This document shows, one piece after another, positions 4,299-26,320 of a DNA stretch of 39,474 nt. The DNA lies in assembly GCA_017469685.1 (NCBI GenBank), contig JAFUFW010000068.1, forward strand, positions 1 to 39,474, written 5' to 3'. Under the pieces are notes generated by a model. That model did not search any database. It saw only the letters and a program-made list of their open reading frames with translations, and had not been told where the DNA came from. Numbering within the stretch: the stretch's first letter is position 1; each line of letters starts with the position of its first letter. The translations under genes were made by a program, and so were the position numbers. Origin of the DNA: Bacteroidaceae bacterium. GTDB taxonomy: Bacteria; Bacteroidota; Bacteroidia; Bacteroidales; Bacteroidaceae.

Positions 4299-4396
4299 GT
4301 TGGCCGTGTCAGCCAAAAAGGTCAAGGGTTTATGAAAAAACCCTTAAGGGTTATTGGCAAAACCCTTGAGGGTTCAGGCCATAACCCTTAAGGGTT
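4299..4396 (+). repeat. Palindromic 22-bp-period array, element A
   Basis: Three 14-base units start at 4339, 4361 and 4383, exactly 22 bases apart. The first and third are the perfect palindrome AACCCTTAAGGGTT; the middle one has one change (AACCCTTGAGGGTT). A degenerate unit (4317-4330, AAAGGTC then AAGGGTT) lies one further period upstream, in phase. The 8-base spacers are TATGAAAA, ATTGGCAA and CAGGCCAT. Read differently, these are tandem 7-bp stems with 8-base loops. The upstream flank includes GTTGGCCG (4299-4306) and AAAAAGG. The same layout recurs at 26197-26320 on the other strand. The rest of the 437-base spacer 4178-4614 holds no gene I can support; the only other signal is the macA -7 element. 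Confidence 0.9.
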
Positions 4397-4573
4397 CTGA
4401 CAGCCATCTGCAACGACTTGATTTTCTATGTCCGTAACTTCTATGTGAAAAGGCTTATAATTATCTATTACTCACACGCGCGCAATAATAATTAATGTGT
4501 GCCAATAGTGTTAAAGCCTCTTAAAACAATTAAACTTTTAGCTTGCCAAACAGTCCGAGAACATAATAATTGC

Positions 4574-4581
4574 TACCTTTG
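4574..4581 (+). promoter_or_regulatory. Putative -7 element upstream of macA
   Basis: TACCTTTG matches the Bacteroidetes -7 consensus TAnnTTTG and lies 33 bases before the macA ATG. I find no clear TTTG at the expected -33 spacing, so this is a partial match only. Confidence 0.45.
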
Positions 4582-4614
4582 CACAAATAAAATCAAACAG
4601 AAGCAGACTCATAT

Positions 4615-5814
4615 ATGAGAAACAAGACACTCCGGGCTCTCATGCCCGTTACCTTAGCAGTCCTGACCTTTTCGCTTGCCGGCTGCTCAAAGAAAACCAA
4701 GGTTGAATACGAAGCGACAGTAGTGGAGCGCGGCAATATCTCTACGACTGTGACCGCAACCGGCACTATCGAGCCCGTAACGAGCGTGGAGGTAGGTACG
4801 CAGGTCAGTGGCATCGTGGCGAAGATCTATGTTGACTACAACTCCGAGGTGAAGGCCGGGCAGGTGATTGCAGAGCTCGATAAGACGAATCTCACCAGTA
4901 CCCTTGCCAGCCAGAGGGCTAACCTAACCAGCATGCAGAGCGCCTTGGCTTATCAGAAAGCAAATTTCGACCGGCAGAAGACCCTCTACGACAAAGGACT
5001 CATCTCGGCCAATGACTTCGAGCAAGCTCGCCTCTCATACGTTCAGGCCCAGCAGCAGGTGACAACAGCTCGCCAGAGCGTGAAGCGCGCCGAGACCGAC
5101 CTCGGCTATGCCACTATCACATCGCCCATTAACGGCGTAGTGCTCTCTAAAGCCGTAGAGGAAGGTCAGACCGTGGCCGCATCGTTCTCCACCCCTACCC
5201 TATTCACAATTGCCCAGGATCTTACTGACATGCGCGTCATCGCCGACATCGATGAGGCCGACATAGGCGAAGTGAAGGAAGGCCAGCGCGTAAGCTTCAC
5301 AGTCGATGCCTTCCCTAACGACACTTTCGAGGGCCGCGTCACCCAAGTACGCCAGCAGGCAACGACGGAAAGCAACGTCGTCACCTATGAGGTTGTCATC
5401 AGCGCACCAAATGCCGACCTTAAGTTGAAGCCTGGTCTCACGGCCAACGTCACCATTTTCACGCTCGAGAAGAACGATGTGCTCACCGTGGCAGCCAAGG
5501 CTCTACGCTTCTCGCCCAACGAGGCCCTGATTGCAGACGACGAAACCATAGAACCCTGCGACGCCCGCCAGAAACTTTGGGTGCGTGATGGCAAGACATT
5601 CAAGGCTTTTCCTGTTGAGACAGGCGTCTCAAACGGCACTCTGACTGAAATCGTCAGTGGCATACAAGCCGGCACTGAGGTGCTTGCCGAGATGATTTTC
5701 GATGCTGCGCAGGAGAACGCTGACTCGCAGCAAAAGAGCAACCCCTTCATGCCCGGACCGCGCAACAACCGCAACAACCAAAACCAAAAGAACGGCAACA
5801 GCCAAAAGAAATGA
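4615..5814 (+). CDS. macA: MacA-type periplasmic adaptor lipoprotein of an ABC export system
   Basis: Membrane-fusion (HlyD/RND adaptor) protein of 399 residues that links an inner-membrane MacB-type ABC transporter to an outer-membrane channel. The N-terminus has a lipoprotein signal with lipobox LAGC, so it should be lipid-anchored and periplasmic. After it come a barrel-sandwich half (TGTIEPVTSVEVGTQVSG), a coiled-coil hairpin of roughly 100 residues rich in Q, A and K, the second lipoyl half (TITSPINGVVLSKAVEEGQ), a beta-barrel (ADIDEADIGEVKEGQRV) and a membrane-proximal domain. The C-terminus is an N/Q/K-rich tail. The stop overlaps the next start by 4 bases (ATGA), indicating translational coupling. 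No TolC-like partner is encoded in the window. The substrate cannot be told from sequence. Confidence 0.92.
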   Translation: MRNKTLRALMPVTLAVLTFSLAGCSKKTKVEYEATVVERGNISTTVTATGTIEPVTSVEVGTQVSGIVAKIYVDYNSEVKAGQVIAELDKTNLTSTLASQRANLTSMQSALAYQKANFDRQKTLYDKGLISANDFEQARLSYVQAQQQVTTARQSVKRAETDLGYATITSPINGVVLSKAVEEGQTVAASFSTPTLFTIAQDLTDMRVIADIDEADIGEVKEGQRVSFTVDAFPNDTFEGRVTQVRQQATTESNVVTYEVVISAPNADLKLKPGLTANVTIFTLEKNDVLTVAAKALRFSPNEALIADDETIEPCDARQKLWVRDGKTFKAFPVETGVSNGTLTEIVSGIQAGTEVLAEMIFDAAQENADSQQKSNPFMPGPRNNRNNQNQKNGNSQKK

Positions 5815-6563
5815 ACGACAAAAAAGTAGTCATCAAGTTGGACAACGTGAGGCGCCACTTTCAAGTTGGCAACGAGACCGTCAAGGCGCTTCGCGGTGTC
5901 AGCTTCGAGATCCACGAGGGCGAATTCGTGACCATCATGGGAACTTCCGGGTCAGGCAAGTCAACTCTCCTCAACCAGCTCGGATGCCTTGACACGCCCA
6001 CGAGTGGGGAGTACTACCTCGACGGTGTCAGCGTGCGCACCATGCGCCGGAGCCAGCGAGCCCGGCTTCGTAACCGCAAGATTGGTTTCGTCTTTCAAAA
6101 CTACAACCTGCTGCCTAAGACGACAGCCGTTGAGAATGTGGAATTGCCATTGATGTACAATAAGGAATACTCGGCCAAGCAGCGTCGCGAAGCTGCCGTA
6201 GCAGCGCTCCAGGCCGTGGGCCTTGGCGATCGTCTTGAGCATAAGAGCAACCAGATGTCAGGCGGACAGATGCAGCGTGTCGCCATAGCCCGTGCACTGG
6301 TAAATAACCCTGCCGTCATTCTTGCCGACGAAGCCACCGGTAACCTCGACACTCGCACCAGCTACGAAGTGCTCGTGCTCTTTCAGAAGCTTCACACTGA
6401 GGGGCGAACAATCATCTTCGTCACTCACAATCCCGAAATTGCGCAGTACAGTTCGCGCAACATAGTCTTGCGCGATGGCAAGATTCGCGAGGACACTCTG
6501 AACTCCAACATCCTCAGTGCAGCCGAAGCCCTTGCAGCGCTGCCCGCACCACAGGACGACTAA
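5811..6563 (+). CDS. macB: MacB/LolD-type ABC transporter ATP-binding protein
   Basis: ATPase subunit of 250 residues that powers the adjacent permease. It shows Walker [10 protein letters not shown] (about residues 44-52), Q-loop [10 protein letters not shown], signature [15 protein letters not shown], Walker B VILADEAT and switch histidine in FVTHNPE. In E. coli, MacB is one polypeptide; here the ATPase and the permease are separate genes, which is common in Bacteroidetes. It overlaps macA by 4 bases. A 129-bp inverted-repeat region separates it from the permease gene. The family is certain; the MacB label rests on the macA neighbour and the FtsX/MacB permease downstream. Confidence 0.93.
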
Positions 6564-6567
6564 AGTC

Positions 6568-6696
6568 AATTCATAATTGATAATCCATAATTCACAATTT
6601 CCCCCAGACAATGACAACTCATGATTCTTAATCAACTGGTCTTCTTTGCAACCCATGAACAGCCAATTATGAATTATGAATTGTGCATTGTGAATT
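6568..6696. repeat. Inverted repeat with 32-base AT-rich arms between macB ATPase and permease
   Basis: The left arm (6568-6599) and the reverse complement of the right arm (6665-6696) agree at 26 of 32 positions with no gaps. Each arm is built from degenerate copies of AATTCATAATT and AATTCACAATT. The central 65 bases are unrelated and contain no supported gene. The right arm ends 7 bases before the permease ATG, so a folded transcript would place that start at the foot of a long stem. It looks like a small non-coding element or MITE-like insertion; I see no clear target-site duplication. Confidence 0.75.
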
Positions 6697-6703
6697 AATA
6701 AAA

Positions 6704-7924
6704 ATGTCCTACATCAACCTATTCAAAATAGCCATTAAGGCCATCCTCAGTAACAAGGCACGCTCGTTCCTCTCAATGCTCGGTATCATTATCGGTGTCG
6801 GAGCTGTCATTGTCATGATGGCCATCGGCCAAGGTTCCAAACTAAGCATTCGTGAGGAACTTTCAAAGCAGGGAACCAATCTGCTCACCATACGCCCCGG
6901 CGCCGACATGCGAGGTGGCGTCCGCTTGGACCCGTCTGCCATGCAGACGCTCAAGCAGGTCGACTACGAGACCATCCTCGCCGAAGCCAAGTTCGTAACG
7001 AAGGTTAGCCCTGAAGTGACTACAAGCGGGCAGGTCATATTCGGTGCCAACAATACCACCTCAACATGCTACGGAGAATCGCCCGACTACCTCAGCATAA
7101 AGCTCTGGGACATCGTCGAAGGTACCAGCTTCACAGAAGAGGATATCAAGAAATCGGCCAAAGTGTGTATAGTCGGTGCTACCGTTGTCAAGGAACTCTT
7201 CCCAAACGGGCAAGACCCTGTTGGCAAGACCATACGTTTCAAGAGCATCCCATTCCGTATTGTTGGTGTGCTTAAGTCAAAAGGTTACAACAACTGGGGA
7301 ATGGATCAGGACAACGTCATCATTGCCCCCTACACTACCGTCATGAAGCGTCTGGCCGCCCAGACTCATTTCAACAGCATTGTTTGCTCTGCCGTAACTG
7401 AGGAACTCTCTGACGCAGCCATCGAAGACCTCACCGAAATACTACGCCGGACACATAAGCTCAAGGCCGACGAGGTTGACAACTTCACCATACGCTCTCA
7501 ACAGGAATTCATGGAGACCATGTCATCGACGATGGACACCATCACTATTATTCTTGTCGTTGCAGCTGCCTTCTCGCTGCTCGTGGCAGGCATAGGCATC
7601 ATGAACATCATGCTCGTCAGCGTCACAGAGCGAACCAAAGAGATAGGCTTGCGAATGAGCGTTGGTGCACGAGGGCTCGACATCAGCAATCAGTTCCTTA
7701 TCGAATCCATACTCATAAGCCTTACGGGGGGCGTCCTCGGCGTGCTCTTCGGAGCCGTGCTCACGTGGGGCTGCAACACTATTGTGGGCTATCCTGCCGT
7801 CATCCCTGCCTGGAGTGTCATAGTAAGCTTTGCCGTTTGCGTGGCTATTGGCGTGGGCTTCGGCTACTTCCCCGCACAGAAAGCCGCACGCCTCGATCCG
7901 ATTGAGGCTATTCGCTATGAGTGA
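6704..7924 (+). CDS. MacB-type ABC transporter permease (FtsX family)
   Basis: Inner-membrane permease of 406 residues, partner of the ATPase encoded at 5811-6563. I start it at ATG 6704 (MSYINLFKIAIKAI); a GTG seven codons upstream lies in the right arm of the AT-rich repeat and adds no conserved sequence. The first membrane helix (SMLGIIIGVGAVIVMMAIGQG region) is typical of MacB. It is followed by a periplasmic core of about 220 residues, then three C-terminal helices forming the FtsX domain: a segment containing SLLVAGIGIMNIMLVSVTERT, then one around ISLTGGVLGVLFGAVL, then one around IVSFAVCVAIGVGFGYFPA, ending in the usual ARLDPIEAIRYE. Together with MacA this should form a tripartite exporter of unknown substrate. 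Confidence 0.93.
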   Translation: MSYINLFKIAIKAILSNKARSFLSMLGIIIGVGAVIVMMAIGQGSKLSIREELSKQGTNLLTIRPGADMRGGVRLDPSAMQTLKQVDYETILAEAKFVTKVSPEVTTSGQVIFGANNTTSTCYGESPDYLSIKLWDIVEGTSFTEEDIKKSAKVCIVGATVVKELFPNGQDPVGKTIRFKSIPFRIVGVLKSKGYNNWGMDQDNVIIAPYTTVMKRLAAQTHFNSIVCSAVTEELSDAAIEDLTEILRRTHKLKADEVDNFTIRSQQEFMETMSSTMDTITIILVVAAAFSLLVAGIGIMNIMLVSVTERTKEIGLRMSVGARGLDISNQFLIESILISLTGGVLGVLFGAVLTWGCNTIVGYPAVIPAWSVIVSFAVCVAIGVGFGYFPAQKAARLDPIEAIRYE

Positions 7925-7997
7925 TGCTTGAGCTTCAAACCTTTTTTATATTAACTCCTAAACGATTAATAGCAAAACATCAATTAACAAAGATACG

Positions 7998-8564
7998 ATG
8001 AAAAGGATTATTTTAATGTTTATGATGGCTTTGCCCCTGATGGCAATAGCCCAGACCGAGAGCAAGTACCTGCGCGGAGCCGTGCCCGAAGAAGACGGCA
8101 TAGTGACCTTCACTAAAGCATTCGATGTAGCTGGCAAGAGCCAGGCCGACATCTACGCTGCCCTGCAGTCTGTAGTAAAAGAGCTCGTAGCCAACGGACG
8201 TCAGGACCTCCGTACACGCATTATTTCCGACGAAGCCAGCACTATCGTAGCCCGCGTAGAGGAAATAATGACCTTCAAGAAAAAGGTCCTCAATTGGGAC
8301 CATACTTATTTCCGCTACCTCGTCACAGCTGAAGCTATCAGTCCGACCCAGGCTAAAGTGGTAATCAAGGGCATCAGCTACTATTACGGCTTTGACCAGG
8401 AAGGCAACAACGGCGAGGAGTATAAGGCAGAGGAGTGGATCTCCGATAAGGCTGCAATCAACAAGGCTGGCACAAAACTCTTCCCCCGGAGCGGCAAGTT
8501 CCGTACGAAGACCATCGACCGCGTTGAGGAAATATTCAACAGCTTCAGCAGCGCCCTGCAATAA
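7998..8564 (+). CDS. DUF4468-like secreted protein
   Basis: A 188-residue protein with a clear signal peptide (MKRIILMFMMALPLMAIAQ, cut after AIA). The mature part begins with a segment of the type seen in Bacteroidetes DUF4468 proteins (FTKAFDVAGKSQADIYAALQSVVKEL), a family with a TATA-binding-protein-like fold and no established function. It is probably periplasmic; there is no lipobox cysteine. It lies 73 bases downstream of the permease gene on the same strand, with no promoter match that I can see between them, so co-transcription with the export system is possible. Its TAA stop directly abuts the stop of the convergent addB gene. The family call is by eye and moderately secure. Confidence 0.72.
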   Translation: MKRIILMFMMALPLMAIAQTESKYLRGAVPEEDGIVTFTKAFDVAGKSQADIYAALQSVVKELVANGRQDLRTRIISDEASTIVARVEEIMTFKKKVLNWDHTYFRYLVTAEAISPTQAKVVIKGISYYYGFDQEGNNGEEYKAEEWISDKAAINKAGTKLFPRSGKFRTKTIDRVEEIFNSFSSALQ

Positions 8565-11426
8565 CTATTGCCGCCCACAGAGCAAACGATAGTCGCAGAA
8601 GCGGCAATGCTCGGCGTCAGTACACTGTGTGAAAGGCACAGAGCGGTCGAAAATCTCGTCGACAAGCATCGCCAGCTGATCAGAAAACAATTCCGATAAA
8701 GGCTGTTCGCCATCCGACAACGGGTGGCGAACGTCGTTTATAGTGCGGCGCTGTAACTTAAGCTTGGCTGAATAGTCGCGAGCCCCTGACTTATGGACAT
8801 AGAAAAGGCAAGGCTGCACTGGCTGCTGCTCAGATTCGGCAACAATCGTTGAGTACAACAGCGTCTGAAAGAAATAGTGCTCCGTCTGGCCGGCATTGCT
8901 AAACAGCCGTCCCAACTCACTCACCGTTCCGCCAGTGCCGCCTGTCTTGTAATCGACGACGCGGATGGCTCTTCCGCCTTCAACGTTCTCATCGGCAACC
9001 TCGTCGAGGCGGTCGATGATGCCACCCGTGCGGATGAGGAGGTCGTGGCCATCGGCCTGCACGTGAAGCGTTGTTGCATACTTGGTTTCGAGACTTATGA
9101 TGCGTATGGGAGCAAGCCGCAGGTCATGGCGTAAAAGCTGGATGAGATAGGTCGTCATGACTTGACGAGCTATGGTGAGAATTCCATCATAATCTTCGAT
9201 GCGGCCTTGGAAATAAGCCTCGCGGAAAGCCTGACTCACGAACGCATCTAAGCGGAGTGCACCTTCGGCAAGCATTGATTCGATGTCCTGCTGACGGACT
9301 ACAGAACCTGCTGTAGTAAGTTCCCGGTAGAGCAGTTCGGCTGCACGGTGGAATACATTGCCGAAAGTGATGGCATCAAAGCCCTTGCTCTCATCATCGA
9401 CCTTAAGTCCTCGTACGTAGCGGTAGTAGAACTTGAGCGGACACGTGGTGTAAAGGTTTAAGGCCGAGGGCGAGAGCAAGCGCTCGCGACCATCGTGAAT
9501 ATCAGTGTTGTCAAATCGGCTTATGAGGGCAGACATGACCTCGTTGGTCTTCTCTGCAACGATTCTCTCGGGCAGGGCCGGCTGGTTCCCGACATTAAGC
9601 TGCAGGTGGCGTATTTCAAAATTGGTCTCGGCTTCAAGTTGGCGGAGGAAACGCGAAATCTCGTTCTGCCTCATGCCGGTATTGCTTTCGTTGTAGACGA
9701 ATGTCACGCGCTCAGCACGCTGTATCAGCCTGTAGAAATAATAAGCATAGACAGCAATCTTATGTCGTAGAGTCGTGAGCCCGAAAGCATCCTTTAGGTG
9801 GTATGGAATGAAACTGCTATCGGCTACGCTCTTAGGCAGGAAACCCTCACCTACGCTCAGCATCAGGATATGACGGAAGTCCAAAGCGCGAGTCTCGAGT
9901 AGGCCCATCAGCTGAAGCCCTACGGCTGGTTCGCCGTGGAATGGTACGCTCTGCTGTGAAAGGATCGAACGTACGATACGTCGAAGTGTGTTGTCGTTCA
10001 CCTCAAGTAAGGGCGTTGTACCATTCATAAGGTCATGAAGGCGGTTGAGGCAAGTGAATGCCTTGAAAACAGCTTCGGCAGCAAGCACATCGTCTGCAAC
10101 CTTCCGCCCTATGAGTGTCAGAAGTTCGCTGGCAAAAGCAAGCAGGTCGGCACCACTGCGTACTTCGCTACGCCATTCGTCACCAAGTAAGCGGGTGTAA
10201 GGATGATGCTCAAAAGCTCGCAAGAGCGATGGACGGAAGCGGTGGTGCACGCGGTCGTATCCTTCGGTGTGAAGGGCCACGAGGCTCGTAACGAAACTGA
10301 AGACAGGTGTGTCGGCGAGAGGATATCCCATCGTTACGTTTACTTCTTTCACGCTTTCGGGCAAACTGTGGAGGGCTGGCAGTAGCAGTTGCTCATTGCA
10401 GAGCACCACGGCCGTCTGACTCTCGGCATAGCTCTCGCCCTCTGGCGCCTTTTCTGATGACGTTAGGTTCTCCTCAAGCCATTGTGGTAGCAGGCGAGCC
10501 TGAATGTTCTCGCTCGAGGCGGCAGCTATTGTAAGTCGTTTCGGCTTTGTGAAATTATCGAAGCATTCGTCGCTCAGTTCGTTGCCATAGCGATTGATGT
10601 TATCGAGCACGAAGTGACCAGCTCCGTGGGTCTTGCCTACTACCTTTTGGAGGTACATCACATCGTAATCCCAGAAAAAGAGGGCCTGTCCGCGACGCTG
10701 GAGCTCATCAAACAAAGATCTCTCAACGTCGTTCAATACATTGAAACCGACGAAAACGAAAGTACGTCCTGAAGGCAGAGGCGGAATTGTCTCAGACGGA
10801 GAACCAGTCGAGGTGAAACGGGAGGCCTTAAGCCTCTCGACCACATCGCGCTGCATCGCACCTTCATAGAGCAGGCCTTCGGCGCGCATGCTTTCGTTCA
10901 GGTCGGAATAGATGTCATGCATGGCGTTCCACAACTCCAGAAATTTCTCTTTCAATGCGGTGTTGTTCTCTATCGAGAACCCAGAGAAGAACGACTTCAG
11001 AGCCTCCTCTTGTTCGGGCGTAATATAATCATTAGAGTCTAAGGCTTTTATGTCGCGAATGTTGGTGAACAGTTGACGAGCATCGACCAAATGCTTGTCA
11101 ACATCGTCGAAATCAGCTAACAGCACCTCGCCCCATCCGTAGAACTGGTCAAGAGTCTGTGGATCTCTTACGTACTTGACATACGAGCGGTACAGCCGGC
11201 ATATGGATTCAATCTGGTCGCAAAGAGCGTATGGCGACACCTCCTCAAACAATTCAGCGATGGTCCTGTAAGAAGGAGCCCATACAGGCTTTTCAGATGC
11301 GTCTGCAAGCGCCTGGTTAAGGAATAGGCTTGCACGCTTGCCAGGGAAAACAATGGTCAGAGAACTCAGATTTGAGCCATATTGGTTTATCAGCGATGAG
11401 GCTACATGCTCGAGAAAGGTTGTCAT
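8565..11426 (-). CDS. addB: AddB-like helicase-exonuclease subunit, PD-(D/E)XK nuclease
   Basis: Second subunit (953 residues) of the AddAB complex, which resects double-strand breaks for RecA loading. The C-terminal nuclease shows SALNLYTTCPLKFYYRYV, then GNVFHRAAELLY and the catalytic VVDYKTG (Asp825, Lys827). Four cysteines are placed as in the AddB iron-sulphur staple: Cys662 before the nuclease core and Cys941, Cys944 and Cys950 at the extreme C-terminus (CxxCx5C). At the N-terminus, where other AddB proteins have a GxxGxGKT-like loop, this one reads TIVFPGKRASLFLN, so nucleotide binding there is doubtful. It starts 28 bases after the addA stop, so the two genes form an operon. The stop abuts the convergent DUF4468-like gene. 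Confidence 0.85.
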   Translation of the reverse strand: MTTFLEHVASSLINQYGSNLSSLTIVFPGKRASLFLNQALADASEKPVWAPSYRTIAELFEEVSPYALCDQIESICRLYRSYVKYVRDPQTLDQFYGWGEVLLADFDDVDKHLVDARQLFTNIRDIKALDSNDYITPEQEEALKSFFSGFSIENNTALKEKFLELWNAMHDIYSDLNESMRAEGLLYEGAMQRDVVERLKASRFTSTGSPSETIPPLPSGRTFVFVGFNVLNDVERSLFDELQRRGQALFFWDYDVMYLQKVVGKTHGAGHFVLDNINRYGNELSDECFDNFTKPKRLTIAAASSENIQARLLPQWLEENLTSSEKAPEGESYAESQTAVVLCNEQLLLPALHSLPESVKEVNVTMGYPLADTPVFSFVTSLVALHTEGYDRVHHRFRPSLLRAFEHHPYTRLLGDEWRSEVRSGADLLAFASELLTLIGRKVADDVLAAEAVFKAFTCLNRLHDLMNGTTPLLEVNDNTLRRIVRSILSQQSVPFHGEPAVGLQLMGLLETRALDFRHILMLSVGEGFLPKSVADSSFIPYHLKDAFGLTTLRHKIAVYAYYFYRLIQRAERVTFVYNESNTGMRQNEISRFLRQLEAETNFEIRHLQLNVGNQPALPERIVAEKTNEVMSALISRFDNTDIHDGRERLLSPSALNLYTTCPLKFYYRYVRGLKVDDESKGFDAITFGNVFHRAAELLYRELTTAGSVVRQQDIESMLAEGALRLDAFVSQAFREAYFQGRIEDYDGILTIARQVMTTYLIQLLRHDLRLAPIRIISLETKYATTLHVQADGHDLLIRTGGIIDRLDEVADENVEGGRAIRVVDYKTGGTGGTVSELGRLFSNAGQTEHYFFQTLLYSTIVAESEQQPVQPCLFYVHKSGARDYSAKLKLQRRTINDVRHPLSDGEQPLSELFSDQLAMLVDEIFDRSVPFTQCTDAEHCRFCDYRLLCGRQ

Positions 11427-11454
11427 AATTAATGTGAGTGTAGTGTTCCAATGT

Positions 11455-14697: not shown

Positions 14698-14718
14698 ACA
14701 CATTATTATATTACCGTG

Positions 14719-14818: not shown

Positions 14819-14823
14819 TAGCG

Positions 14824-18417: not shown

Positions 18418-18443
18418 TGTAAGTTGGGTGTTGACAAAGGCTA

Positions 18444-18469
18444 CCCCACTCTCTCTTGAAGAGGTGGGG
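18444..18469 (-). terminator. Hairpin between batE and the PAP2 gene
   Basis: CCCCAC (18444-18449) pairs with GTGGGG (18464-18469), and an inner CTCT/AGAG pair with a 3-base bulge extends the stem. It lies just past the batE stop in the direction of transcription. No long T-run follows, so it may be an imperfect terminator or an RNA-processing stem. Confidence 0.4.
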
Positions 18470-18489
18470 AGATATGTGATTACTTGGGT

Positions 18490-19278: not shown

Positions 19279-19375
19279 TGAGAAGTGAGAATAGTGAATA
19301 GAATATTGAACTAAGAATGAATGAAGAAACGTAAACGTTACATTGAAAATGCAACGGGCTCCACAATGAAATGTA

Positions 19376-21220
19376 TTAGAATGCGTCCTGCAGGCGTGTG
19401 ATGACCTGTGCTGCTTCGTTGTATATGTTCTCCATGTTTGCTGCGGGATCACCTGGAGCGAAGCGAGCGAACTCGCATTCGTCGAGCGTTTGGACAAACA
19501 GGGATATTATTTCAGGTTGGACATTCTTCTGTTGTAGCTGCTGTGTCACGTTGTCTTTCGTGAGTTGTGCCGTAGGAATATTCAGCTTGTCTGCCACGTA
19601 TCCCCAGAGAGCTCTCATTGCCTCATCGTAGAACGCCTCGGGTTTGTTTTGCTGTAATATGCGGCGTGCTGCTTTGAGTCGGCGGTTTGCAATCTTGTTA
19701 GCCCCTTGAGTTCTGCGGCGTGCCACATCGGCATTAAGGGCAAGGCGACGACGGAAAGCAACGATGGTGGCGAAGAAGGTCAGGAATGCTGCAGCGTAAA
19801 TAGCCCAGTAGCGGCGCGAAGCAAACAACGTTGAATCGGCATTAAGATATGTGGGCTCGGAAGTCTGAATATAGCGAATGTCGGAATTGAGCAGTTGAAT
19901 ATCTTCCTTTGACAATCCTGATGAGTTGCTCGAGCGCCCAGAACCCTGTGTGACGTCAATCGTGTACGCCTCGGTCTGGAGTGTGCGGTACTGCTTGGCC
20001 TCGGGGTCGAAGTAGCAGAACTGCACAGGGGTTAAGTCATACTGCCCTTTGTGGCGCGGCACAGCGATATAGTCGAAAACAATTTTGCCAGTTGAGCCTG
20101 AAGGACCAATGCTTGTATGTTCTTCGCTCTTTGGGTCGTAGCGCTCAAAGTCCTTAGGCCAGTCGACTTGCGGAGCTTTTATGAGCTTGATATTTCCCGT
20201 GCCATTGACTGTCACGCGAAGCGTAGTGGCATCATTTGCCTTGAGACTTTGAGGCGTAAGCGTGGCGGAGATGTTGAACTTACCGACAGCTCCGGAGTAG
20301 TTTTCTGGCTTGGGTGAAGGCAGGGGTTCCACTTGAAGCGTTACTGCAGGTGCAATGACAGTCTTGCGGACTTCCTGAACCATAGAGCCGCCGCCAAAGA
20401 ATATGTCAAATGGGTCGGCCGAGCGGTTCTGCTGAACGACGGTGGCTTCGTATTTTATCTCAGGTATCGTGAGCGTGCCCGTCTGCTGTGGGAATACTAC
20501 ATATTGGCTCCAGACGACGGTGCCATAGTTCTTGCCGTTGTAATGTTCCATCTTCAACTCAGGCTGACGCTGGCGGTTTAGTTCCTGAACATGGAATCCA
20601 TCGAGTTCGGGCATCTTTCCTTCGAGGCTCGAGACGTTGACGAGCGTGTAGAGCTTGTATGTAAGCAGGACGGCTTCTTGCTCAAATACTTTCCGCTTTG
20701 AAGCAGTTACGGCTATAAACAAATCCTTACCAGTAATCTTGTCGCCAACGTTCTGGGTGTGCATCCGGTCCGCTTGTGTGCCTGAATGTGCCGCGCCTGT
20801 CTGACTTTGTTGTGAAGCGCCTTTAGATGAAGATCCTGCTGGCAGGATGGAGAACGCTGGCGAAGCTGATTTGTAGGTCTTGCCGCCCGACGTGACTGTT
20901 GCTGCTGGCACATGATAAGATCCAGCGGTATGCGCGCTTAGTGTATAGGTAAATGTTGTGCTTGACGAAGAGGTGGTCTTGCCGTTGACCATTGAATAGC
21001 TCGACGAGCGGCTTGTGGATGGACCGAAATCAACCGTCACGCCCTGGAACTCGCCGACACTGAAATCATCAATATCCTGAGTGTTCACAACATATGATAC
21101 GCGAAAGCGGTCGCCTTCAACGACCTCTGAAGGAGCTTGCACCCGCACGTTTACCTGCGCCGTGAGTGTGCGTATCACCATCAATAATGAAAAGAGAATT
21201 ACAATTCTGTTCTTTTTCAT
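19376..21220 (-). CDS. batD: BatD protein
   Basis: A 614-residue BatD-family protein. It has a signal peptide (MKKNRIVILFSLLMVIRTLTAQ), followed by repeated beta-sandwich domains facing the periplasm (VNVRVQAPSEVVEGDRFRVS, KDLFIAVTASKRKVFEQEAV, then PENYSGAVGKFNISATL). A single membrane helix follows at about residue 475-490 (YWAIYAAAFLTFFATIVAF). A cytoplasmic alpha-helical tail of roughly 120 residues ends the protein. A Ser/Gln-rich stretch (SSSKGASQQSQTG) separates the first two domains. It lies between the batB-batC fusion and batE on the same strand and is expected to act with the VWA proteins BatA and BatB in a membrane complex energised by MoxR. Confidence 0.92.
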   Translation of the reverse strand: MKKNRIVILFSLLMVIRTLTAQVNVRVQAPSEVVEGDRFRVSYVVNTQDIDDFSVGEFQGVTVDFGPSTSRSSSYSMVNGKTTSSSSTTFTYTLSAHTAGSYHVPAATVTSGGKTYKSASPAFSILPAGSSSKGASQQSQTGAAHSGTQADRMHTQNVGDKITGKDLFIAVTASKRKVFEQEAVLLTYKLYTLVNVSSLEGKMPELDGFHVQELNRQRQPELKMEHYNGKNYGTVVWSQYVVFPQQTGTLTIPEIKYEATVVQQNRSADPFDIFFGGGSMVQEVRKTVIAPAVTLQVEPLPSPKPENYSGAVGKFNISATLTPQSLKANDATTLRVTVNGTGNIKLIKAPQVDWPKDFERYDPKSEEHTSIGPSGSTGKIVFDYIAVPRHKGQYDLTPVQFCYFDPEAKQYRTLQTEAYTIDVTQGSGRSSNSSGLSKEDIQLLNSDIRYIQTSEPTYLNADSTLFASRRYWAIYAAAFLTFFATIVAFRRRLALNADVARRRTQGANKIANRRLKAARRILQQNKPEAFYDEAMRALWGYVADKLNIPTAQLTKDNVTQQLQQKNVQPEIISLFVQTLDECEFARFAPGDPAANMENIYNEAAQVITRLQDAF

Positions 21221-21359
21221 CTTTTATCTCTATCCTTTAATCATTATCTAAATTATCCATCCAACGTTCAGCTGTTAGCTGCCTATGCTGAGGAGTTCGG
21301 CTTAAGGCCGTCGCGTCACAATGACATTCAGTCATCAATAAGACGTTATTCTCCTCTCT

Positions 21360-23102
21360 TTACCATTGTTTCTCGAGCTGCCGCCGCTGCGGGCGCTGCT
21401 GAGCCTTGTTGACCTTGTCTTGTGTCTGCTTCTCTTCTTGCTGAGCAGCTTGCAAGAGCTGCTCAGCATTCTCTTTCGACATCTTTGGCTGTTCGGGCTG
21501 CTGCTGCTCTTGTTGCTGGTCTTGCTGTTGCTTCTGCTGCTGTTGTTCTTGTTTTTGTTGTTCTTGCTTCTGCTTGTCCTGGCCTTGTTGGTTGTCTTGT
21601 CCGCCTTGGTCATCCTGGCTCTGATTCTTCAGCTGATGCAGACATAGCGCGAGGTTATAGCGCGTCTCATCGTCCTTCGGATTTCGTCGAAGGGCGTTCT
21701 GGTAGCACTGAATAGCTTCTTTGAACTGCTTTTGACTCTGAAGTATTACACCCATATTGTGGTATGCCTGAGCTGCACGCAACTTTTCAGTCTGCATTCG
21801 GGCTGCTGTCTCGAAACTCTGCATCGCCTCTTTCGGCTGTCCCTGCATCAGTTGAGCATTACCAAGATTATAGTGTGCTACAGCGTTAGAGTTATCTTTC
21901 TCTATTGCTTTTTGGTAGTTGACTTGTGCTTTTGTGTATAGGCTGTCGCGGTACTGGCGGTTGCCGTGGCGTATGAAATAGCGGTCGTTTTTCTTCTGTG
22001 CAAAGGCTTTCGAGGATGAGAAAGGTATGAGTTCCGATGCTATAGGCGAGAGGAAGAATAGCATCAGCAAGGCAGCCTTTGCAGATGGGAAGATGCTGAA
22101 GCGACTGAGAACTCGGTTGCGACGAGACAGAATCAGAGTCTCAATCAGCAGCAGAACGAGAGCCGCCCAGGCAAAATCTCTGAAATGCTCGTCGAACTCG
22201 CTATAGAGCACTGATTCTATGTCGGCTTTTGCCAGTTTATCAACGTGTTTCTGTAGGGCAGATATTGCCGACGAACTGTTGTCAACATATATATATGCCC
22301 CCCCGCCAGCCTGCGAGATGTCGCGGCACATCTGTTCGTTGAGCTTCGACACGACTGTGTTTCCGGCATTATCGGTAATATAGCCATTAGAGCCGCGAAT
22401 GGGAATAGGGCTGCCTTCGGGCGTTCCGATACCAAGAACGTACACTTTCATTCCGCGCTTCTGGGCTTCTGCTGCGGCGCTCTCTGCCCCACCCTCGTTG
22501 TCCTCACCGTCGGTAATGACGAAGATTGCGCGCCCCACGCCTTCCTGTTGGGTGAAACTGTGGGATGCCAGTTCTATAGCCCGGGCGATGTCGGTGCCTT
22601 GAACATTGACCATAGCTGGTGAAATGTTGTCAAGGAACATCTTGGCAGAGACATAATCAGACGTGATAGGCAACTGCGTAAAGGCATCTCCGGCATAAAC
22701 TATGAGACCGATCTTGTCGTCGGTCATATCGTCGACGAGGCTGCTGATGAGCAGCTTCGCTTTGTCGAGACGGCTTGGCGAAACGTCGGTGGCAAGCATC
22801 GAATTTGACACGTCGAGCGCCACAATAGCCTCTATGCCCCTGCGCTTGCGGGTGTCAATTTTAGTTCCATACTGAGGACGTGCCAGGCAGACAATCATCA
22901 TGCCGAAGGCCGACAGCAGGAGCCAGAACTTCAGTTCGCGTCGCCAAAGTGATACATCAGGCATGAGAGGCTTCAAGAGTTGTGTCTCTCCAAAGGCTCG
23001 TAGGCGTCGTGCCCTCCGATAGTTTGTCAAATAGTGCAGAAGTGCCATCACTGGCAGAAGGGCCAGTGTATACAGATAGAAAGGATTTTCGAATCTAAAC
23101 AT
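21360..23102 (-). CDS. Fused BatB-BatC (VWA plus TPR protein)
   Basis: A 580-residue protein combining two usually separate Bat proteins. Residues 1-330 are BatB: two N-terminal helices (about 8-25 and 59-74), a von Willebrand A domain with metal-site motif DVSNS (97-101), Thr170 and Asp198 in ITDGED, and a C-terminal helix (310-325). Residues 336-369 form a signal-peptide-like segment ending AFAQ. Residues 370-490 are TPR repeats of the BatC type (HGNRQYRDSLYTKAQVNYQK, VAHYNLGNAQLMQGQPKEAM, AYHNMGVILQSQKQFKEAI). Residues 491-540 are nearly all Gln, Asp, Lys and Glu. No stop separates the halves. It lies 20 bases after batA. Confidence 0.9.
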   Translation of the reverse strand: MFRFENPFYLYTLALLPVMALLHYLTNYRRARRLRAFGETQLLKPLMPDVSLWRRELKFWLLLSAFGMMIVCLARPQYGTKIDTRKRRGIEAIVALDVSNSMLATDVSPSRLDKAKLLISSLVDDMTDDKIGLIVYAGDAFTQLPITSDYVSAKMFLDNISPAMVNVQGTDIARAIELASHSFTQQEGVGRAIFVITDGEDNEGGAESAAAEAQKRGMKVYVLGIGTPEGSPIPIRGSNGYITDNAGNTVVSKLNEQMCRDISQAGGGAYIYVDNSSSAISALQKHVDKLAKADIESVLYSEFDEHFRDFAWAALVLLLIETLILSRRNRVLSRFSIFPSAKAALLMLFFLSPIASELIPFSSSKAFAQKKNDRYFIRHGNRQYRDSLYTKAQVNYQKAIEKDNSNAVAHYNLGNAQLMQGQPKEAMQSFETAARMQTEKLRAAQAYHNMGVILQSQKQFKEAIQCYQNALRRNPKDDETRYNLALCLHQLKNQSQDDQGGQDNQQGQDKQKQEQQKQEQQQQKQQQDQQQEQQQPEQPKMSKENAEQLLQAAQQEEKQTQDKVNKAQQRPQRRQLEKQW

Positions 23103-23122
23103 TTTGTTTTTGCAATTAATTG

Positions 23123-24130
23123 CTAAGGTATGTTCTTAAGCAAGGTTTCGCGTAGCAACAGCTCGATCAGGAGTAAAAGGCAGGCCGCGAGTGCGAATGG
23201 TGCGAATGCCTCAAAGCGTTTGGAATACTCCTTGACATTCATCTTCGTCTTCTCAAGCTTGTCAATCTGTTGATATACCTCACGGAGTTTATTATTGTTC
23301 GTGGCCCTATAAAACTCAGCGTTGGTGGAGGCAGCTATCGACGCCAGTGTCTTGCTGTCAATCTCAACAGGGATGTTGACGTATTCTATATGCCCTCCAA
23401 CGGGATAAGGGTAACGAGCTGTACCATTAGTTCCGACACCAATGGTATAAATTCTTATACCAAAACTCTTTGCAATCTCAGCCGCTGTTAGCGGGGAAAT
23501 ATCCCCGGCATTGTTTGAACCATCGGTCAGCAAGATAATCACCTTGGATTTGGCCTTCGAATCCTTGAGTCTCGTCACGGCATTAGCCAGCCCCATGCCA
23601 ATTGCTGTGCCGTCGTCCATCAGACCTCGCTGGACCATGTCGCAGCTAAGGCTCCCCATCATGTTAAGCAACACTGCGTGGTCTGTTGTCATGGGGCATT
23701 GTGTGAACGACTCACCGGCAAATATTGTAAGGCCTATATTGTCGTTGGGACGGCCTGAAATAAACTCCGAAGCCACCTTCTTTGCCGCTTCTATTCTATT
23801 GGGCTTCAAGTCTTCGGCGAGCATTGATGTGGATATGTCGACGCAGAGCATAATGTCGATCCCCTCGACAGTGCGGTCGCTCCATGAATTACTTGTTTGT
23901 GGGCGGCACAGAACGATGACAATCATCACGTAAGCCAGCACTCGTAGTAGGAAGGGAGCGTGAACAAGATATTGGCGGAAAGTCTTCGGAGCATCCTTGT
24001 ATGCCAGGGTCGATGACATTTGCAGCGAAGGGGCATTGTCGCCGCTTTTGAGCAGATACCAAAGGATATATGGTATCAGCAGCGTAAGCAATAGAAGGTA
24101 ATATGGATTTGCTAATTGCATATTGGGCAT
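23123..24130 (-). CDS. batA: BatA: membrane-anchored von Willebrand A protein
   Basis: A 335-residue inner-membrane VWA protein. Two N-terminal helices (YYLLLLTLLIPYILWYLL and RVLAYVMIVIVLC) precede the VWA domain, which has the metal-site motif DISTS (98-102), a Thr in DDGTAIG and an Asp in LLTDGSNNAGD. A C-terminal helix (FAPFALAACLLLLIELLL) closes it. This is the usual BatA design, placing the VWA domain on one face of the membrane between helices. The metal-site residues are intact. An alternative start three codons later (MQLANPYY) is equally plausible. Spacing is 8 bases from the DUF4381-like gene before it and 20 to the batB-batC fusion after it, so these genes are clearly one operon. 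Confidence 0.93.
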   Translation of the reverse strand: MPNMQLANPYYLLLLTLLIPYILWYLLKSGDNAPSLQMSSTLAYKDAPKTFRQYLVHAPFLLRVLAYVMIVIVLCRPQTSNSWSDRTVEGIDIMLCVDISTSMLAEDLKPNRIEAAKKVASEFISGRPNDNIGLTIFAGESFTQCPMTTDHAVLLNMMGSLSCDMVQRGLMDDGTAIGMGLANAVTRLKDSKAKSKVIILLTDGSNNAGDISPLTAAEIAKSFGIRIYTIGVGTNGTARYPYPVGGHIEYVNIPVEIDSKTLASIAASTNAEFYRATNNNKLREVYQQIDKLEKTKMNVKEYSKRFEAFAPFALAACLLLLIELLLRETLLKNIP

Positions 24131-24138
24131 TTCAACAG

Positions 24139-25230
24139 TCAGTGTACTAAGTCAATTATGAAGTAGAGAGCAACCACTGCGAGGACAAAGGCCGCTACAG
24201 CACATACACCCATGATAATCTTCATGGTCAGTGATCGCGAACGGCTTTGCTTTACTTCCTCGGGAACAATGATTTCCTCCTCTGGGGCATTCGGGTCGAT
24301 CTCGAGTTTCGTCTGGTTGATAAAATCTATTGCGCAGACGAGATTTGCATCGTTCTCGTTGATCATCGTGGAGTACTTTGCGAATTTTACGAGGTCAGCC
24401 GTCTCGAAGAGTGAGCGTAGCTCGCGCAAGCCTTCTTCGTCGCGCTCCTCCAGCAAGCGTTGGATTATCTCGTTCGAGGTCATCTCCATGGCGTTGAACC
24501 CATAACGCTCGTGGATATAGTTGCGGAGCGTATCTGTCAGTTCAGTGTAGTACTCCTTGCTATTCTCTTCGGTCCATTTGCGCTCGCTCTTAATGCGCTC
24601 TATTTCCTGCATGGCAACTTCGTGTGCGGGCATTTTGCGCTTACGACGTATGAATCGAATAAGCGGACGATTTTCACGCCAATGACCGTAGAGCCAGAGC
24701 AAGAGCAATGCCAACAATTGGTTGACGGCTATGAGCCAAATAACTGGCTTCCAGTCGTCCCACGAGAATGGGTTGCGTTGTATGTCTTTGTTGGGAAAGA
24801 ACTGGTCAAGATGTAGCGTATCAACATCCATCGTCAATACTTTTAAAGCCAGGGGCTTAGATTGAATCCGTTCGCCGTCTACTTCAGCTTCAAAAGGTGG
24901 AATTAGGACGAATGCAGAGTCCCAGGCAGTGATGGCGTAGCGATCTACTATTTGCTTCCGCCTCCCTTCGTCGAGCTCAATAGTGTCTGACCCAAGTCGT
25001 TCCACGACTTCAACCACATCGGCGAGCATTAGCCCCGGTTGCAACTCTGGCATGCGAAGCTTCTGCTTGGCGTCGCACGTCAGGTCGAGCGTGAGCTCAC
25101 GCTGCTCGCCAATAAGCATCAGCAACGTGTCGATGTGGGCATCGAAGATGACTTGTGCGCCGGCTGCCGAGGGCAGAATGGCTAATATAGTAAAGAATAG
25201 TTTCTTTAACATATTTTGTTGCTTAATCAT
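24139..25230 (-). CDS. DUF4381-like membrane protein of the Bat operon
   Basis: A 363-residue protein with a signal peptide (KKLFFTILAILPSAAGAQ), a periplasmic domain of about 135 residues, a membrane helix (PVIWLIAVNQLLALLLLWLY), a cytoplasmic charged helical region (EIERIKSERKWTEENSKEYY, LRNYIHERYGFNAMEMTSNE) and a final C-terminal helix (IIMGVCAVAAFVLAVVALYFIID). The central segment matches the pattern of DUF4381 proteins that sit between the DUF58 gene and batA in many Bacteroidetes Bat clusters. No enzyme motifs are visible. It is likely a structural or assembly partner of the VWA proteins; that is inference from context. Confidence 0.8.
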   Translation of the reverse strand: MIKQQNMLKKLFFTILAILPSAAGAQVIFDAHIDTLLMLIGEQRELTLDLTCDAKQKLRMPELQPGLMLADVVEVVERLGSDTIELDEGRRKQIVDRYAITAWDSAFVLIPPFEAEVDGERIQSKPLALKVLTMDVDTLHLDQFFPNKDIQRNPFSWDDWKPVIWLIAVNQLLALLLLWLYGHWRENRPLIRFIRRKRKMPAHEVAMQEIERIKSERKWTEENSKEYYTELTDTLRNYIHERYGFNAMEMTSNEIIQRLLEERDEEGLRELRSLFETADLVKFAKYSTMINENDANLVCAIDFINQTKLEIDPNAPEEEIIVPEEVKQSRSRSLTMKIIMGVCAVAAFVLAVVALYFIIDLVH

Positions 25231-25299
25231 CAGTGAATAACTTAAACTCTATTCGGTAACAATCCTCACAGCCAGGCGGCAGGAGAATGATAGAAATAG

Positions 25300-26169
25300 T
25301 CAAGACCGCTGTGCGAACAGGCTGCGAAGCGCAACGACATAGTCCTGGTCTGTCCTCACGCTTACGTGGTCGACGTTGCTTCTCGTGAAAGTGTCAGACA
25401 GAGCATTTTGGCTGTCGTGCCACCAGCGGGCATGTGCATTGCGCACTCGAGAGCTTGAGGAATCTATCCATTGCAGGTGTCCGGTCTCGGCATCGCGGAC
25501 GCGGATGAGGCCTACGTTGGGCAACTCAGCAATACGGCGGTCGTAGACCTGAATGGCTACGACATCGTGTTTGCGGTTGGCTATCGTCAGCGCCTGTCGG
25601 AAATCTCCCTCGTCAATGAAATCGCTGAGCAAGAAGCAGGTGCAGCGTCGCTTTATAACCTGCGTGAGATATTCCACTGCCATCTTGATGTCGGTGCGTG
25701 AGCTTTCGGGCTTAAATTCAAGCAGTTCGCGAATGATGTAGAGAATGTGTTTGCGACCTTTCTTCGGAGGAATGAACTTCTCAATGCGGTCGGAGAAAAA
25801 CACTACGCCTATCTTGTCGTTGTTCTGAATAGCACTGAAAGCGAGCGTGGCAGCAATCTCGGTCACCAGCTCTCGCTTGGTCTGAACGGCTGTGCCGAAA
25901 TCGTGGCTTGCACTGACGTCGACCAAGAGCATCACCGTGAGTTCACGCTCTTCCTCAAACACCTTCACGTAGGGCTTATTGAAGCGGGCTGTGACGTTCC
26001 ATTCAATGTCGCGAATGTCATCGCCATAGGTGTATTCACGCACTTCACTGAAAGCCATTCCGCGCCCCTTGAAGGCAGAATGGTACTCGCCGGCGAAGAT
26101 ATTGCTTGAAAGGCCTCGTGTCTTTATCTCAATCCTTCGGACTCTTTTTAAGATATCTGATGTTTCCAC
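25300..26169 (-). CDS. DUF58 domain protein of the MoxR-Bat cluster
   Basis: A 289-residue soluble protein. It begins METSDILKRVRRIEIKTRGL and contains the DUF58 core FKGRGMAFSEVREYTYGDDI followed by IDW-like DIEWNVTAR. The C-terminal part has a VWA-like fold with metal-site-like DVSAS (84-88), FFSDRIEKFIPPKKG and LLSDFID. DUF58 genes are almost always paired with moxR. It is separated from moxR by element B (26197-26320), which ends only 27 bases before its start codon. The length and motif set are complete. A chaperone or scaffold role with MoxR is proposed for the family; there is no catalytic motif beyond possible metal binding. Confidence 0.92.
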   Translation of the reverse strand: METSDILKRVRRIEIKTRGLSSNIFAGEYHSAFKGRGMAFSEVREYTYGDDIRDIEWNVTARFNKPYVKVFEEERELTVMLLVDVSASHDFGTAVQTKRELVTEIAATLAFSAIQNNDKIGVVFFSDRIEKFIPPKKGRKHILYIIRELLEFKPESSRTDIKMAVEYLTQVIKRRCTCFLLSDFIDEGDFRQALTIANRKHDVVAIQVYDRRIAELPNVGLIRVRDAETGHLQWIDSSSSRVRNAHARWWHDSQNALSDTFTRSNVDHVSVRTDQDYVVALRSLFAQRS

Positions 26170-26196
26170 TGAATAATTCTAATGTATTATTTGGGG

Positions 26197-26320
26197 CCCT
26201 CTTTAGGGCTTCGCTCGAAACCCTTAAGGGTTCGGCGCATAACCCTTAAGGGTTTTGCCGATAACCCTTAAGGGTTTTGTGTAAAACCCTTGGGCCTTTT
26301 TTGCGTAGCGTTCGGGCAAC
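26197..26320 (-). repeat. Palindromic 22-bp-period array, element B, inside the moxR-bat gene run
   Basis: Three perfect AACCCTTAAGGGTT units start at 26219, 26241 and 26263, exactly 22 bases apart. Degenerate units lie one period out on both sides, in phase: 26285-26298 (AACCCTT kept) and 26197-26210 (AGGG kept). Read on the minus strand the 8-base spacers are TTACACAA, ATCGGCAA and ATGCGCCG; the middle one differs from its counterpart in element A by a single base. The upstream flank GTTGCCCG (26313-26320) and AAAAAAGG also parallels element A. It begins 6 bases after the moxR stop. It would be transcribed with the operon and could form tandem 7-bp stems with 8-base loops. Confidence 0.9.

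Follow-up and report, generated by a model that had tools for sequence, protein, structure and literature searches.

Two short arrays in the analysed window (the whole 39,474-nucleotide contig JAFUFW010000068.1 of a Bacteroidaceae bacterium), hereafter labelled A and B, are members of an intergenic array family that occupies about 80 places in the source genome. Each array is a series of 14-bp palindromes on a 22-bp step. The best reading of the family is as phased DNA sites, with selfish repeats and RNA hairpins as serious rivals.

Table 1. Arrays A and B, their units and the neighbouring genes in the window.
Feature	Position	Strand	Description
Array A	4317..4396	.	Four 14-bp units, 22-bp step, first degenerate, 8-bp spacers
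A degenerate end unit	4317..4330	-	AAAGGTCAAGGGTT on +; AACCCTTGACCTTT on -, the T-rich end
A palindrome unit	4339..4352	.	AACCCTTAAGGGTT
A unit	4361..4374	.	AACCCTTGAGGGTT, one mismatch; variant recurrent in the family
A palindrome unit	4383..4396	.	AACCCTTAAGGGTT
Array B	26219..26298	.	Four 14-bp units, 22-bp step, last degenerate, 8-bp spacers
B palindrome unit	26219..26232	.	
B palindrome unit	26241..26254	.	
B palindrome unit	26263..26276	.	
B degenerate T-rich end unit	26285..26302	+	AACCCTTGGGCCTTTTTT; 14-nt in-register unit 26285-26298, AACCCTTGGGCCTT
HSP90 gene	2126..4177	-	Neighbour of A
MacA-like (HlyD family) membrane-fusion protein gene	4615..5814	+	Neighbour of A
MoxR-type AAA ATPase gene	26327..27322	-	Neighbour of B
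DUF58 gene	25300..26169	-	Neighbour of B

Array A is located between the divergent HSP90 and membrane-fusion genes, and B directly behind the stop codon of the MoxR-type AAA ATPase gene. Both contain three 14-bp palindromes (AACCCTTAAGGGTT) and a fourth, degenerate one, with a step of exactly 22 nt; within two mismatches, the window holds six such 14-mers against 0.06 expected. A sequence-only reading of the window had described A and B as oriented copies of one dispersed element, and part of that description stands. Both exist as described, each with an in-register degenerate fourth unit; read on the minus strand, B repeats the order of parts of A, including ATCGGCAA against ATTGGCAA; and together they belong to one dispersed intergenic family with a common end, AACCCTTGRSCYTTTTT. 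The flank GTTGSCCG, which that reading included in the element, is found no further than 70 nt away at only 2 of the 78 arrays listed, namely A and B, and its presence at both is chance. The spacer ATYGGCAA is not supported as diagnostic, being present in 20 of these 78. At the gathering threshold, Rfam reports only a tRNA in the window and no match for the arrays.

The stretches of the source genome that were read contain at least 78 arrays with 248 units. These array counts are minima because the list holds 198 of the 210 genome-wide 14-mer sites with at most one mismatch (a reversed control gives 0) and 142 of the 145 two-unit matches. Among the arrays listed, the step is exactly 22 nt in 165 of 170 cases, and 164 of the 248 units are exactly AACCCTTAAGGGTT, the remainder being mostly a few recurrent variants; the 165 spacers comprise 115 different sequences. 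An array has 1–6 semi-palindromic units, usually 4–5, and spans about 80–100 bp. Arrays often finish in a T run, with the consensus end AACCCTTGRSCYTTTTT; this T-rich end recurs in 36 of the 78 and by the same pattern is lacking in 42. In the 35 arrays in which one end is T-rich, conservation by column declines beyond the T run. Spacer orientation agrees within an array in 79–81% of cases, as opposed to 50–53% after shuffling.

With genes predicted by a simple ORF scorer, on which all neighbour counts below also depend, 76 of the 78 arrays listed overlap no gene by more than 10 nt, and three overlap a gene end by 9 nt. Matches are thus not equally common inside genes, in keeping with the sequence-only reading, yet the consistent pointing toward the next gene that it also proposed is not seen, array direction being random with respect to gene direction. 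By spacer orientation, 12 of the co-directional arrays listed run with transcription, 18 against and 11 are undecided; the corresponding numbers in the congener G012 are 12, 8 and 3. The T-rich end is downstream in 14 and upstream in 6 of the arrays listed (P=0.12), a tendency opposite to the one first described. The random direction, together with the two occurrences of GTTGSCCG, removes those parts of the earlier interpretation. Marking of the replication strand was rejected as well, with P=0.12 and 0.72 for array direction against GC skew.

The family appears to be restricted to the genus, where the letters of the arrays change while the step is kept. Arrays of congeners retain the 22-nt step with palindromes CGACCGGTCG, AACACTTAAGTGTT or GGTTAACC-cored, and pairs of CGACCGGTCG at 22 nt (at most three mismatches) number 140, 64, 57, 52 and 42 in five congeners, with 0–3 per genome for controls. 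G074, G010, G003, G016 and G145 are congeners rich in one dialect; other congeners have none. Two-unit matches to the source dialect number 145 in the source genome, 4 in the congener G016 and 0 in 59 other relatives, and the genomes with R1 matches are at most 37 of 139, source genome included, an upper bound in which some genomes rest on unconvincing loci (L146, L154, L155, L162). In a sequence-blind scan of 800 kb of G016, the best period is most often 22 (34 of 93 clusters). The same period is best in 71 of 96 clusters from the source genome and 40 of 45 from G012, in stretches chosen for their arrays, and shuffled sequence yields 0 clusters. Four other families, scanned over 400 kb, give three clusters of period 21 and none of period 22. 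Four further congeners have one period-22 cluster per 100 kb in three cases and none in the fourth, so array abundance varies within the genus. Since relatives often have arrays of different letters on the same 22-base step, spacing seems to matter more than sequence.

Individual sites were compared between the source genome and G016. For 13 source array sites, G016 has a syntenic gap, and in 12 of these a same-dialect array is absent. Three of those 12 instead contain a 22-nt array whose sequence is unrelated; in the test proper, a 22-nt array occupies 3 of 11 gaps at source array sites and 1 of 51 gaps elsewhere (P=0.016), and a 4/12 variant (P=0.0037) includes one same-dialect site added by hand post hoc. 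The genes adjacent to arrays in both the source genome and G012 are not shared above chance (3 of 13 versus 7 of 40, P=0.69). On inspection of the 240 nt behind MoxR at 29 congener loci, none of 27 showed this array, the other two (L072 and L087) having been mislocated and being uninformative; a conserved regulatory site of the MoxR–DUF58 pair was rejected.

These observations lead us to favour, tentatively, an interpretation in which the arrays may be sites on double-stranded DNA, spaced by two helical turns, for a putative, dialect-specific protein with a chromosome-level role. Each 14-bp dyad would be bound by a dimeric protein; the 22-bp step, equal to two helix turns, would place neighbouring dimers on one face of the DNA for joint binding. 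The sequence preferred by this putative protein would shift between species, giving rise to dialects; the spacing would be retained, as would some locations. Its role could be in loop, domain or segregation marks or in transcription-unit boundaries, rather than in the regulation of single genes. Arrays of iterons at plasmid origins and two-turn-phased operator arrays have this layout, with several sites spaced at about 22 bp on one DNA face and a protein-specific dialect; they are single loci, as opposed to the about 80 dispersed chromosome sites here.

Several lines of evidence count for such DNA sites: the constancy of the step despite the diversity of spacers, the uniformity of the units, the random direction with respect to genes, which indicates that the arrays are not strand-specific, the period-22 scans, the CGACCGGTCG pairs and the exchange of arrays at G016 loci. 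So does the spacing in the source genome, where 33 gaps between the arrays listed have a minimum of 8.3 kb, although 11.6 would be expected below 8 kb (0 of 20,000 simulations); a few arrays are absent from the list, so some of these gaps could be broken. Such wide spacing is not found everywhere: arrays of G012 come as close as 1.7 kb and those of G016 are clumped, both of which count against the DNA-site interpretation, as do the missing same-dialect arrays at G016 sites and the absence of gene sharing with G012. Palindromy is weaker in G016 (at least 5 of 6 pairs in 35%, versus 9% shuffled) and absent in the loci L147 and L160 of some species; this too, with the uneven occurrence in the genus, speaks against it. 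A further reading, in which intergenic places across the genus keep dyad arrays on a sequence-free 22-bp ruler while the dyad sequence is swapped wholesale between sister species, we consider rather doubtful. A restriction-site reading of the CTTAAG, GTTAAC and CCTAGG cores is put forward only as an idea.

The arrays could instead act as RNA, with two tandem 14-bp hairpins and 8-nt loops behind stop codons serving as a bidirectional terminator or as a stabiliser of mRNA 3′ ends. Their placement fits this, co-directional arrays being closer to gene 3′ ends in 31 of 41 cases among the source arrays listed and in 21 of 23 in G012, often with the T run at the array end. Median fold z-scores of -5.4, -3.0 and -2.6 in three species, with controls near 0, point the same way, and folds are strong on both array strands. 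An alignment (A2) of 26 hand-picked rows, made up of 22 chosen from the 40 loci read in other species and 4 from the source genome, leaves out repeats of one place, the ortholog L159, weak windows and CCTAGG-cored rows. For units 1:2 and 3:4, it has 39 double-change cells, where shuffling yields 17.1 (0 of 500), units 2:3 not being significant. This covariation and the folding on both strands suit RNA and count against DNA sites, but the covariation is inflated by the mixing of species dialects. Palindromes within units of A2 exceed shuffles too (27 double-change cells versus 15.3). By inspection, the orthologous group L136/L142/L145 has compensatory stems; the L136 array lies directly behind a stop codon and ahead of an alpha-amylase gene, and a SusE/F-like label for the gene before it was dropped, Pfam giving no match.

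Within the source genome, compensatory changes are lacking: 0 of 100 deviating hairpin positions have Watson–Crick compensation, and none of the 15 predicted pairs shows covariation. In 34 four-unit arrays of G012, neighbouring units are no more complementary than shuffled ones, and units 2–3 are less so, which argues against hairpin pairing and for DNA sites. Hairpins need no fixed 8 nt for both loop and linker, and arrays also occupy divergent gaps (9 of 69 source arrays listed and 8 of 40 in G012 with both neighbours known), A among them. The G012 complementarity, the counts from the source genome and the random orientation lower the RNA hairpins to an unlikely explanation.

Selfish, non-autonomous repeats with no host role, of the BOX or BrickBuilt kind, are a distinct possibility, if not the probable one. 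A module copied by some enzyme would grow and shrink by 22-nt steps, the step coming from copying or slippage and the dialects from separate expansions. Lineage specificity, with the two-unit matches concentrated in the source genome and no same-dialect array at nearly all syntenic G016 sites, supports such copying, and duplication by unit is evident from the direct-repeat orientation within arrays and from L151, L168 and L173, which are near-perfect minisatellites. Weighing on the other side, spacers have diverged whereas palindromes and step have not, and 22-nt arrays of unrelated sequence occur in G016 more often at the source array sites than in other gaps. Signatures of mobility are lacking too. 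In 71 of the 78 arrays listed, the longest inverted word in the outer 50-nt flanks is 5.27 against 5.43 for shuffled partners, with no terminal inverted repeat (TIR) signal, and the longest direct word is 5.49 against 5.37, a comparison in which target-site duplications (TSDs) of 2–4 nt are undetectable; identity as a MITE was rejected in the absence of either signal. No Y1/RAYT transposase (PF01797) was found in G000, G016 or G012, a provisional result given assemblies 86–92% complete, and this, with the end AACCCTTGRSCYTTTTT in place of a GTAG or CGTC tag, led us to reject a REP/RAYT identity. Viral spread was rejected on 0 exact matches in IMG/VR. Plain minisatellites, in which chance tandem duplication gives a 22-nt step without a role, would account for the near-perfect repeats of L151 and L168, but the step recurs at many loci of unrelated sequence and the next period in G016, 7 nt, reaches only 11 of 93 clusters, which makes this very improbable.

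No description of the family was found in the open-licence PMC literature, a weak test of its absence from print. CRISPR arrays, with repeats of 24–48 bp and regular-sized, non-repetitive spacers, were rejected in view of 14-bp units, 8-nt spacers and 78 loci listed. BOX elements are modular and number about a hundred; the arrays here vary in unit number, and by the pattern used 36 of 78 carry the T-rich end and 42 lack it. BOX, RUP and SPRITE modules are longer than the present units and are not known to follow a 22-bp palindromic step. These small interspersed repeats of Streptococcus pneumoniae are similarly lineage-limited, being near-absent from other streptococci and parasitic according to their authors, whose abstract describes no dialect exchange at one locus (PMC3049150). 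BrickBuilt, a minisatellite MITE of another Bacteroidales species, Porphyromonas gingivalis, lends the selfish explanation a precedent: it is intergenic, dispersed and limited in host range, with a short tandem repeat of variable copy number. As summarised in PMC4596501, it has a 23-nt step without spacers, TIRs, a leader and tail of up to about 300 nt and 19 copies in ATCC 33277, unlike the about 80 arrays here, which combine a 22-nt step, 14-bp palindromes, variable 8-nt spacers and several dialects with no leader, tail, TIR or TSD signal. REP, BIME and REPIN elements are likewise small, palindromic, intergenic and abundant, with species-specific sequence families; REPs, however, are outlined as 20–40 bp with a GTAG or CGTC tag, the GTAG ones often with a RAYT transposase (PMC3733652). 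The units here are 14 bp long, keep to a fixed 22-bp step and lack a tag, and the search for a Y1 transposase was negative. The 188-bp PINSR of Prevotella intermedia (177–184 copies) is also intergenic, lineage-specific, numerous and without TIRs, and is set apart by its description, which has no tandem palindromes (PMC4755523).

If the 22-bp ruler holds, the arrays would be part of a DNA-binding system in rapid evolution, which sets marks along the chromosome at intervals (no less than 8.3 kb among the source arrays listed) and alters its own sites; its logic would resemble that of centromere repeats that co-evolve with their proteins. The usual explanations for small palindromic repeats are a transposase (RAYT) and RNA hairpins. 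For these arrays no such transposase was found and hairpins lack clear support, and between species it is the spacing that persists rather than the letters. Should the 22-bp step be read by a protein, a new system of chromosome marking would have come to light in Bacteroidales; should none do so, the arrays would point to a new kind of array-building process.

The window, contig C13 of an 87% complete draft genome (2.83 Mb in 94 contigs), holds six family 14-mers against 0.06 expected, arranged in the arrays A and B. The two genes around element A, one for HSP90 and one MacA-like, diverge; B has a MoxR-type gene on one side and a DUF58 gene on the other. A dispersed family of such arrays certainly exists: the whole genome contains 210 sites with at most one mismatch, against none for a reversed control, and the 626 kb read around the listed matches contain at least 78 arrays with at least 248 units, a list that takes in 198 of the 210 sites and 142 of the 145 two-unit matches. 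Of 170 steps, 165 measure 22 nt and the other five 44 nt (three), 23 nt and 67 nt (one each). Three units (37 arrays) or four (23) are commonest; with degenerate end units included, 25 arrays have four and 29 have five. The exact palindrome is found in 164 of the 248 units and the remainder are mainly AACCCTTAAGCCTT (28) and AACCCTCAAGGGTT (25), reverse complements pooled, with 115 distinct sequences among 165 spacers. A T-rich end, AACCCTTGRSCYTTTTT, was found by pattern match in 36 of the 78 arrays, 29 of which were aligned, and column conservation drops beyond it. The flank GTTGSCCG, which the sequence-only reading had made part of the element, is present at 2 of 78 arrays, and that assignment fails.

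Coordinates of arrays and other features in the window and at individual loci (L-numbers)
Feature	Locus	Position	Description
Element A	window	4317-4396	AACCCTTAAGGGTT 14-bp palindromes, exact 22-nt step; 3 good units and a degenerate end unit
Element B	window	26219-26298	AACCCTTAAGGGTT 14-bp palindromes, exact 22-nt step; 3 good units and a degenerate end unit
tRNA gene	window	31598-31671	sole Rfam match in the window (gathering threshold)
Two-dialect neighbours	L119, own genome	C72:34992-35157	own-family array and a three-mismatch second-dialect (CGACCGGCCG-like) pair about 55 nt off
Adjacent arrays	L239, G016	8643-9283	2-3 adjacent 22-nt arrays of differing dialects (with L229)
Adjacent arrays	L229, G016	8692-8926	as L239
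Array behind F5/8 type C gene	L132	166-225	homologous large genes at L132 and L047 (RGIG2642 and own genome)
Array behind F5/8 type C gene	L047	3984-4019	as L132
(GATTAGG)n + GCAAAGRTAATAAAAG	L129	3488-3541, 5842-5901	
(GATTAGG)n + GCAAAGRTAATAAAAG	L115	6756-6822	
(GATTAGG)n + GCAAAGRTAATAAAAG	L045	3153-3211	
(GATTAGG)n + GCAAAGRTAATAAAAG	L018	16937-16996	

Two-unit matches (at most two mismatches) number 145 in the own genome, 4 in the congener G016 and none in 59 other relatives. Among 84,980 species genomes, a collection that may omit records close to the window's genome, exact pairs occur in two MAGs only, Bacteroidaceae RGIG2642 from goat omasum (three contigs) and Prevotellaceae SRR873602_bin.145 (one contig); viral contigs have none. 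A sequence profile of the family matches at most 37 of 139 genus genomes, own counted. Congener loci keep the 22-nt step with different palindromes, here called dialects: AACACTTAAGTGTT in G091, G032 and G100, AAGGCCTAGGCCTT in G102 and G139, AACGCCTAAGGGTT in G017, and, in G012, half-sites that include AAAGGTT and AACCATT. By scan, exactly four units are present in 34 of the 42 G012 arrays read. A second dialect, CGACCGGTCG pairs at 22 nt (at most three mismatches), reaches 140 pairs in G074, 64 in G010, 57 in G003, 52 in G016 and 42 in G145, with 4 in the own genome and any in 30 of 139 genomes (controls, 0-3 per genome). Triple exact CTTAAG at 22 nt occurs in 18 of 139 genomes, own counted, and in six genomes for controls (maximum 8). 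The neighbours of differing dialect at L119 are possibly a chimera. (Near-)perfect hairpins, for example AAGCCCAAGGGTT-loop-AACCCTTGGGCTT, adjoin some arrays (L027, L052, L118 and L112) and resemble ordinary terminators made of the same heptads.

The step also emerges without reference to the letters. In a sequence-blind autocorrelation scan, 22 is the commonest best period: period-22 clusters make up 34 of 93 in 800 kb of G016 (40 pieces, four of them set on known arrays), where period 7 is second commonest; in stretches selected for arrays the shares are 71 of 96 (own genome) and 40 of 45 (G012), and shuffled controls gave no clusters. Three further congeners have one such cluster each per 100 kb and G097 none; four other-family genomes (400 kb) have none, with three clusters of period 21. 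Consensus 22-mers surpass shuffled ones in palindromy, the scores out of 6 pairs being 5.5 (shuffled, 3.7) in the own genome, 5.0 (3.8) in G012 and 4.2 (3.6) in G016. That the 22-bp step is common to unrelated dialects is well supported. Also dispersed, and common to the own genome and RGIG2642, are telomere-like 7-nt repeats (GATTAGG)n that abut a GCAAAGRTAATAAAAG stretch; on the opposite strand, we take GCAAAGRTAATAAAAG to be a Bacteroidales promoter box (TTTGC motif).

The arrays in the window correspond to no Rfam family, no TIR or TSD signal is seen at own arrays, and no Y1/RAYT match occurs in the own genome, G016 or G012. Of the described elements that we found, the closest is BrickBuilt of P. 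gingivalis (PMC4596501), a minisatellite MITE that has a 23-nt unit, a leader and a tail. Others are REP (PMC3733652), BOX/RUP/SPRITE (PMC3049150), PINSR of P. intermedia (PMC4755523) and a set of palindromic candidate structured RNAs, the majority of them predicted terminators and a part of them from Bacteroidetes (PMC8040213).

Among the 78 own arrays, 76 overlap no predicted gene by more than 10 nt, and the other two overlap weak small ORFs. Their contexts are 41 co-directional, 19 convergent and 9 divergent, with 9 having an unseen neighbour; the 455 pairs of neighbouring genes in these stretches, array gaps counted too, divide into 332, 50 and 73. G012 has 23, 9, 8 and 2, against 128, 23 and 24 of 175 pairs. 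By these counts convergent gaps are over-represented in the own genome and somewhat in G012, where divergent gaps are not avoided. Most arrays in co-directional gaps, 31 of 41 in the own genome and 21 of 23 in G012, lie closer to the 3′ end of the gene upstream, a placement to which A, in its divergent gap, is an exception. The spacers of one array tend to share a direction (79% own, 81% G012; shuffled, 50-53%), and that direction is random relative to transcription, with 12 arrays with and 18 against it in the own genome and 12 with and 8 against in G012. Of the own co-directional arrays, 14 have the T-rich end on their downstream side and 6 on their upstream side (P = 0.12). The earlier proposal that the element points to the next gene therefore fails.

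Along own contigs (C44, C54, C45, C61, C68, C72 and others), the 33 within-contig gaps between found arrays have a mean of 20.2 kb and a minimum of 8.3 kb; random placement predicts 11.6 gaps below 8 kb where none is observed, and neither this minimum nor the coefficient of variation was reached in any of 20,000 simulations. Searching these stretches again with a grammar-based scan added no arrays. This wide spacing is not general, as adjacent arrays approach to 1.7 kb in G012 and clump within one gap in G016, and we report it as unexplained.

Position appears to be kept while sequence changes. For 13 own arrays, the part of G016 read includes the syntenic gap; one of these gaps holds a same-dialect array and 12 do not, but 3 of those 12 carry a 22-nt array of unrelated sequence. 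Across 62 gaps mapped by gene neighbours, a 22-nt array is present in G016 for 3 of the 11 gaps that have an own array and for 1 of the remaining 51 (Fisher P = 0.016), one modest test that supports this reading. Counting against it, array-adjacent genes common to the own genome and G012 are not above chance. Positionally kept arrays in congeners form one set at L136, L142, L145 and L149, the L136 array lying directly behind a gene without a Pfam match and ahead of an alpha-amylase gene, and a second at L157, L158 and L159, with the L157 array behind a beta-lactamase-family gene.

The arrays could act as RNA or as DNA. In a hand-picked multi-species alignment that combines several dialects, 14-bp hairpins pairing units 1:2 and 3:4 are favoured, with 39 double-change cells where shuffling gives 17.1 (0/500); pairing 2:3 instead does not reach significance, and self-palindromes give 27 cells against 15.3. 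Either strand folds well in the 34 arrays taken from each of three species. Within the own genome the Watson-Crick pair is kept at 0 of 100 deviating hairpin positions and 2 of 147 palindrome positions, 0 of 15 pairs covary within one genome, and neighbouring G012 units are no more complementary than shuffled ones. Because within-genome covariation is absent, direction is random and the linker is fixed as well as the loop, we favour reading the arrays as double-stranded DNA. Tentatively, we infer that they are phased dyads, which a putative dialect-specific protein may recognise.
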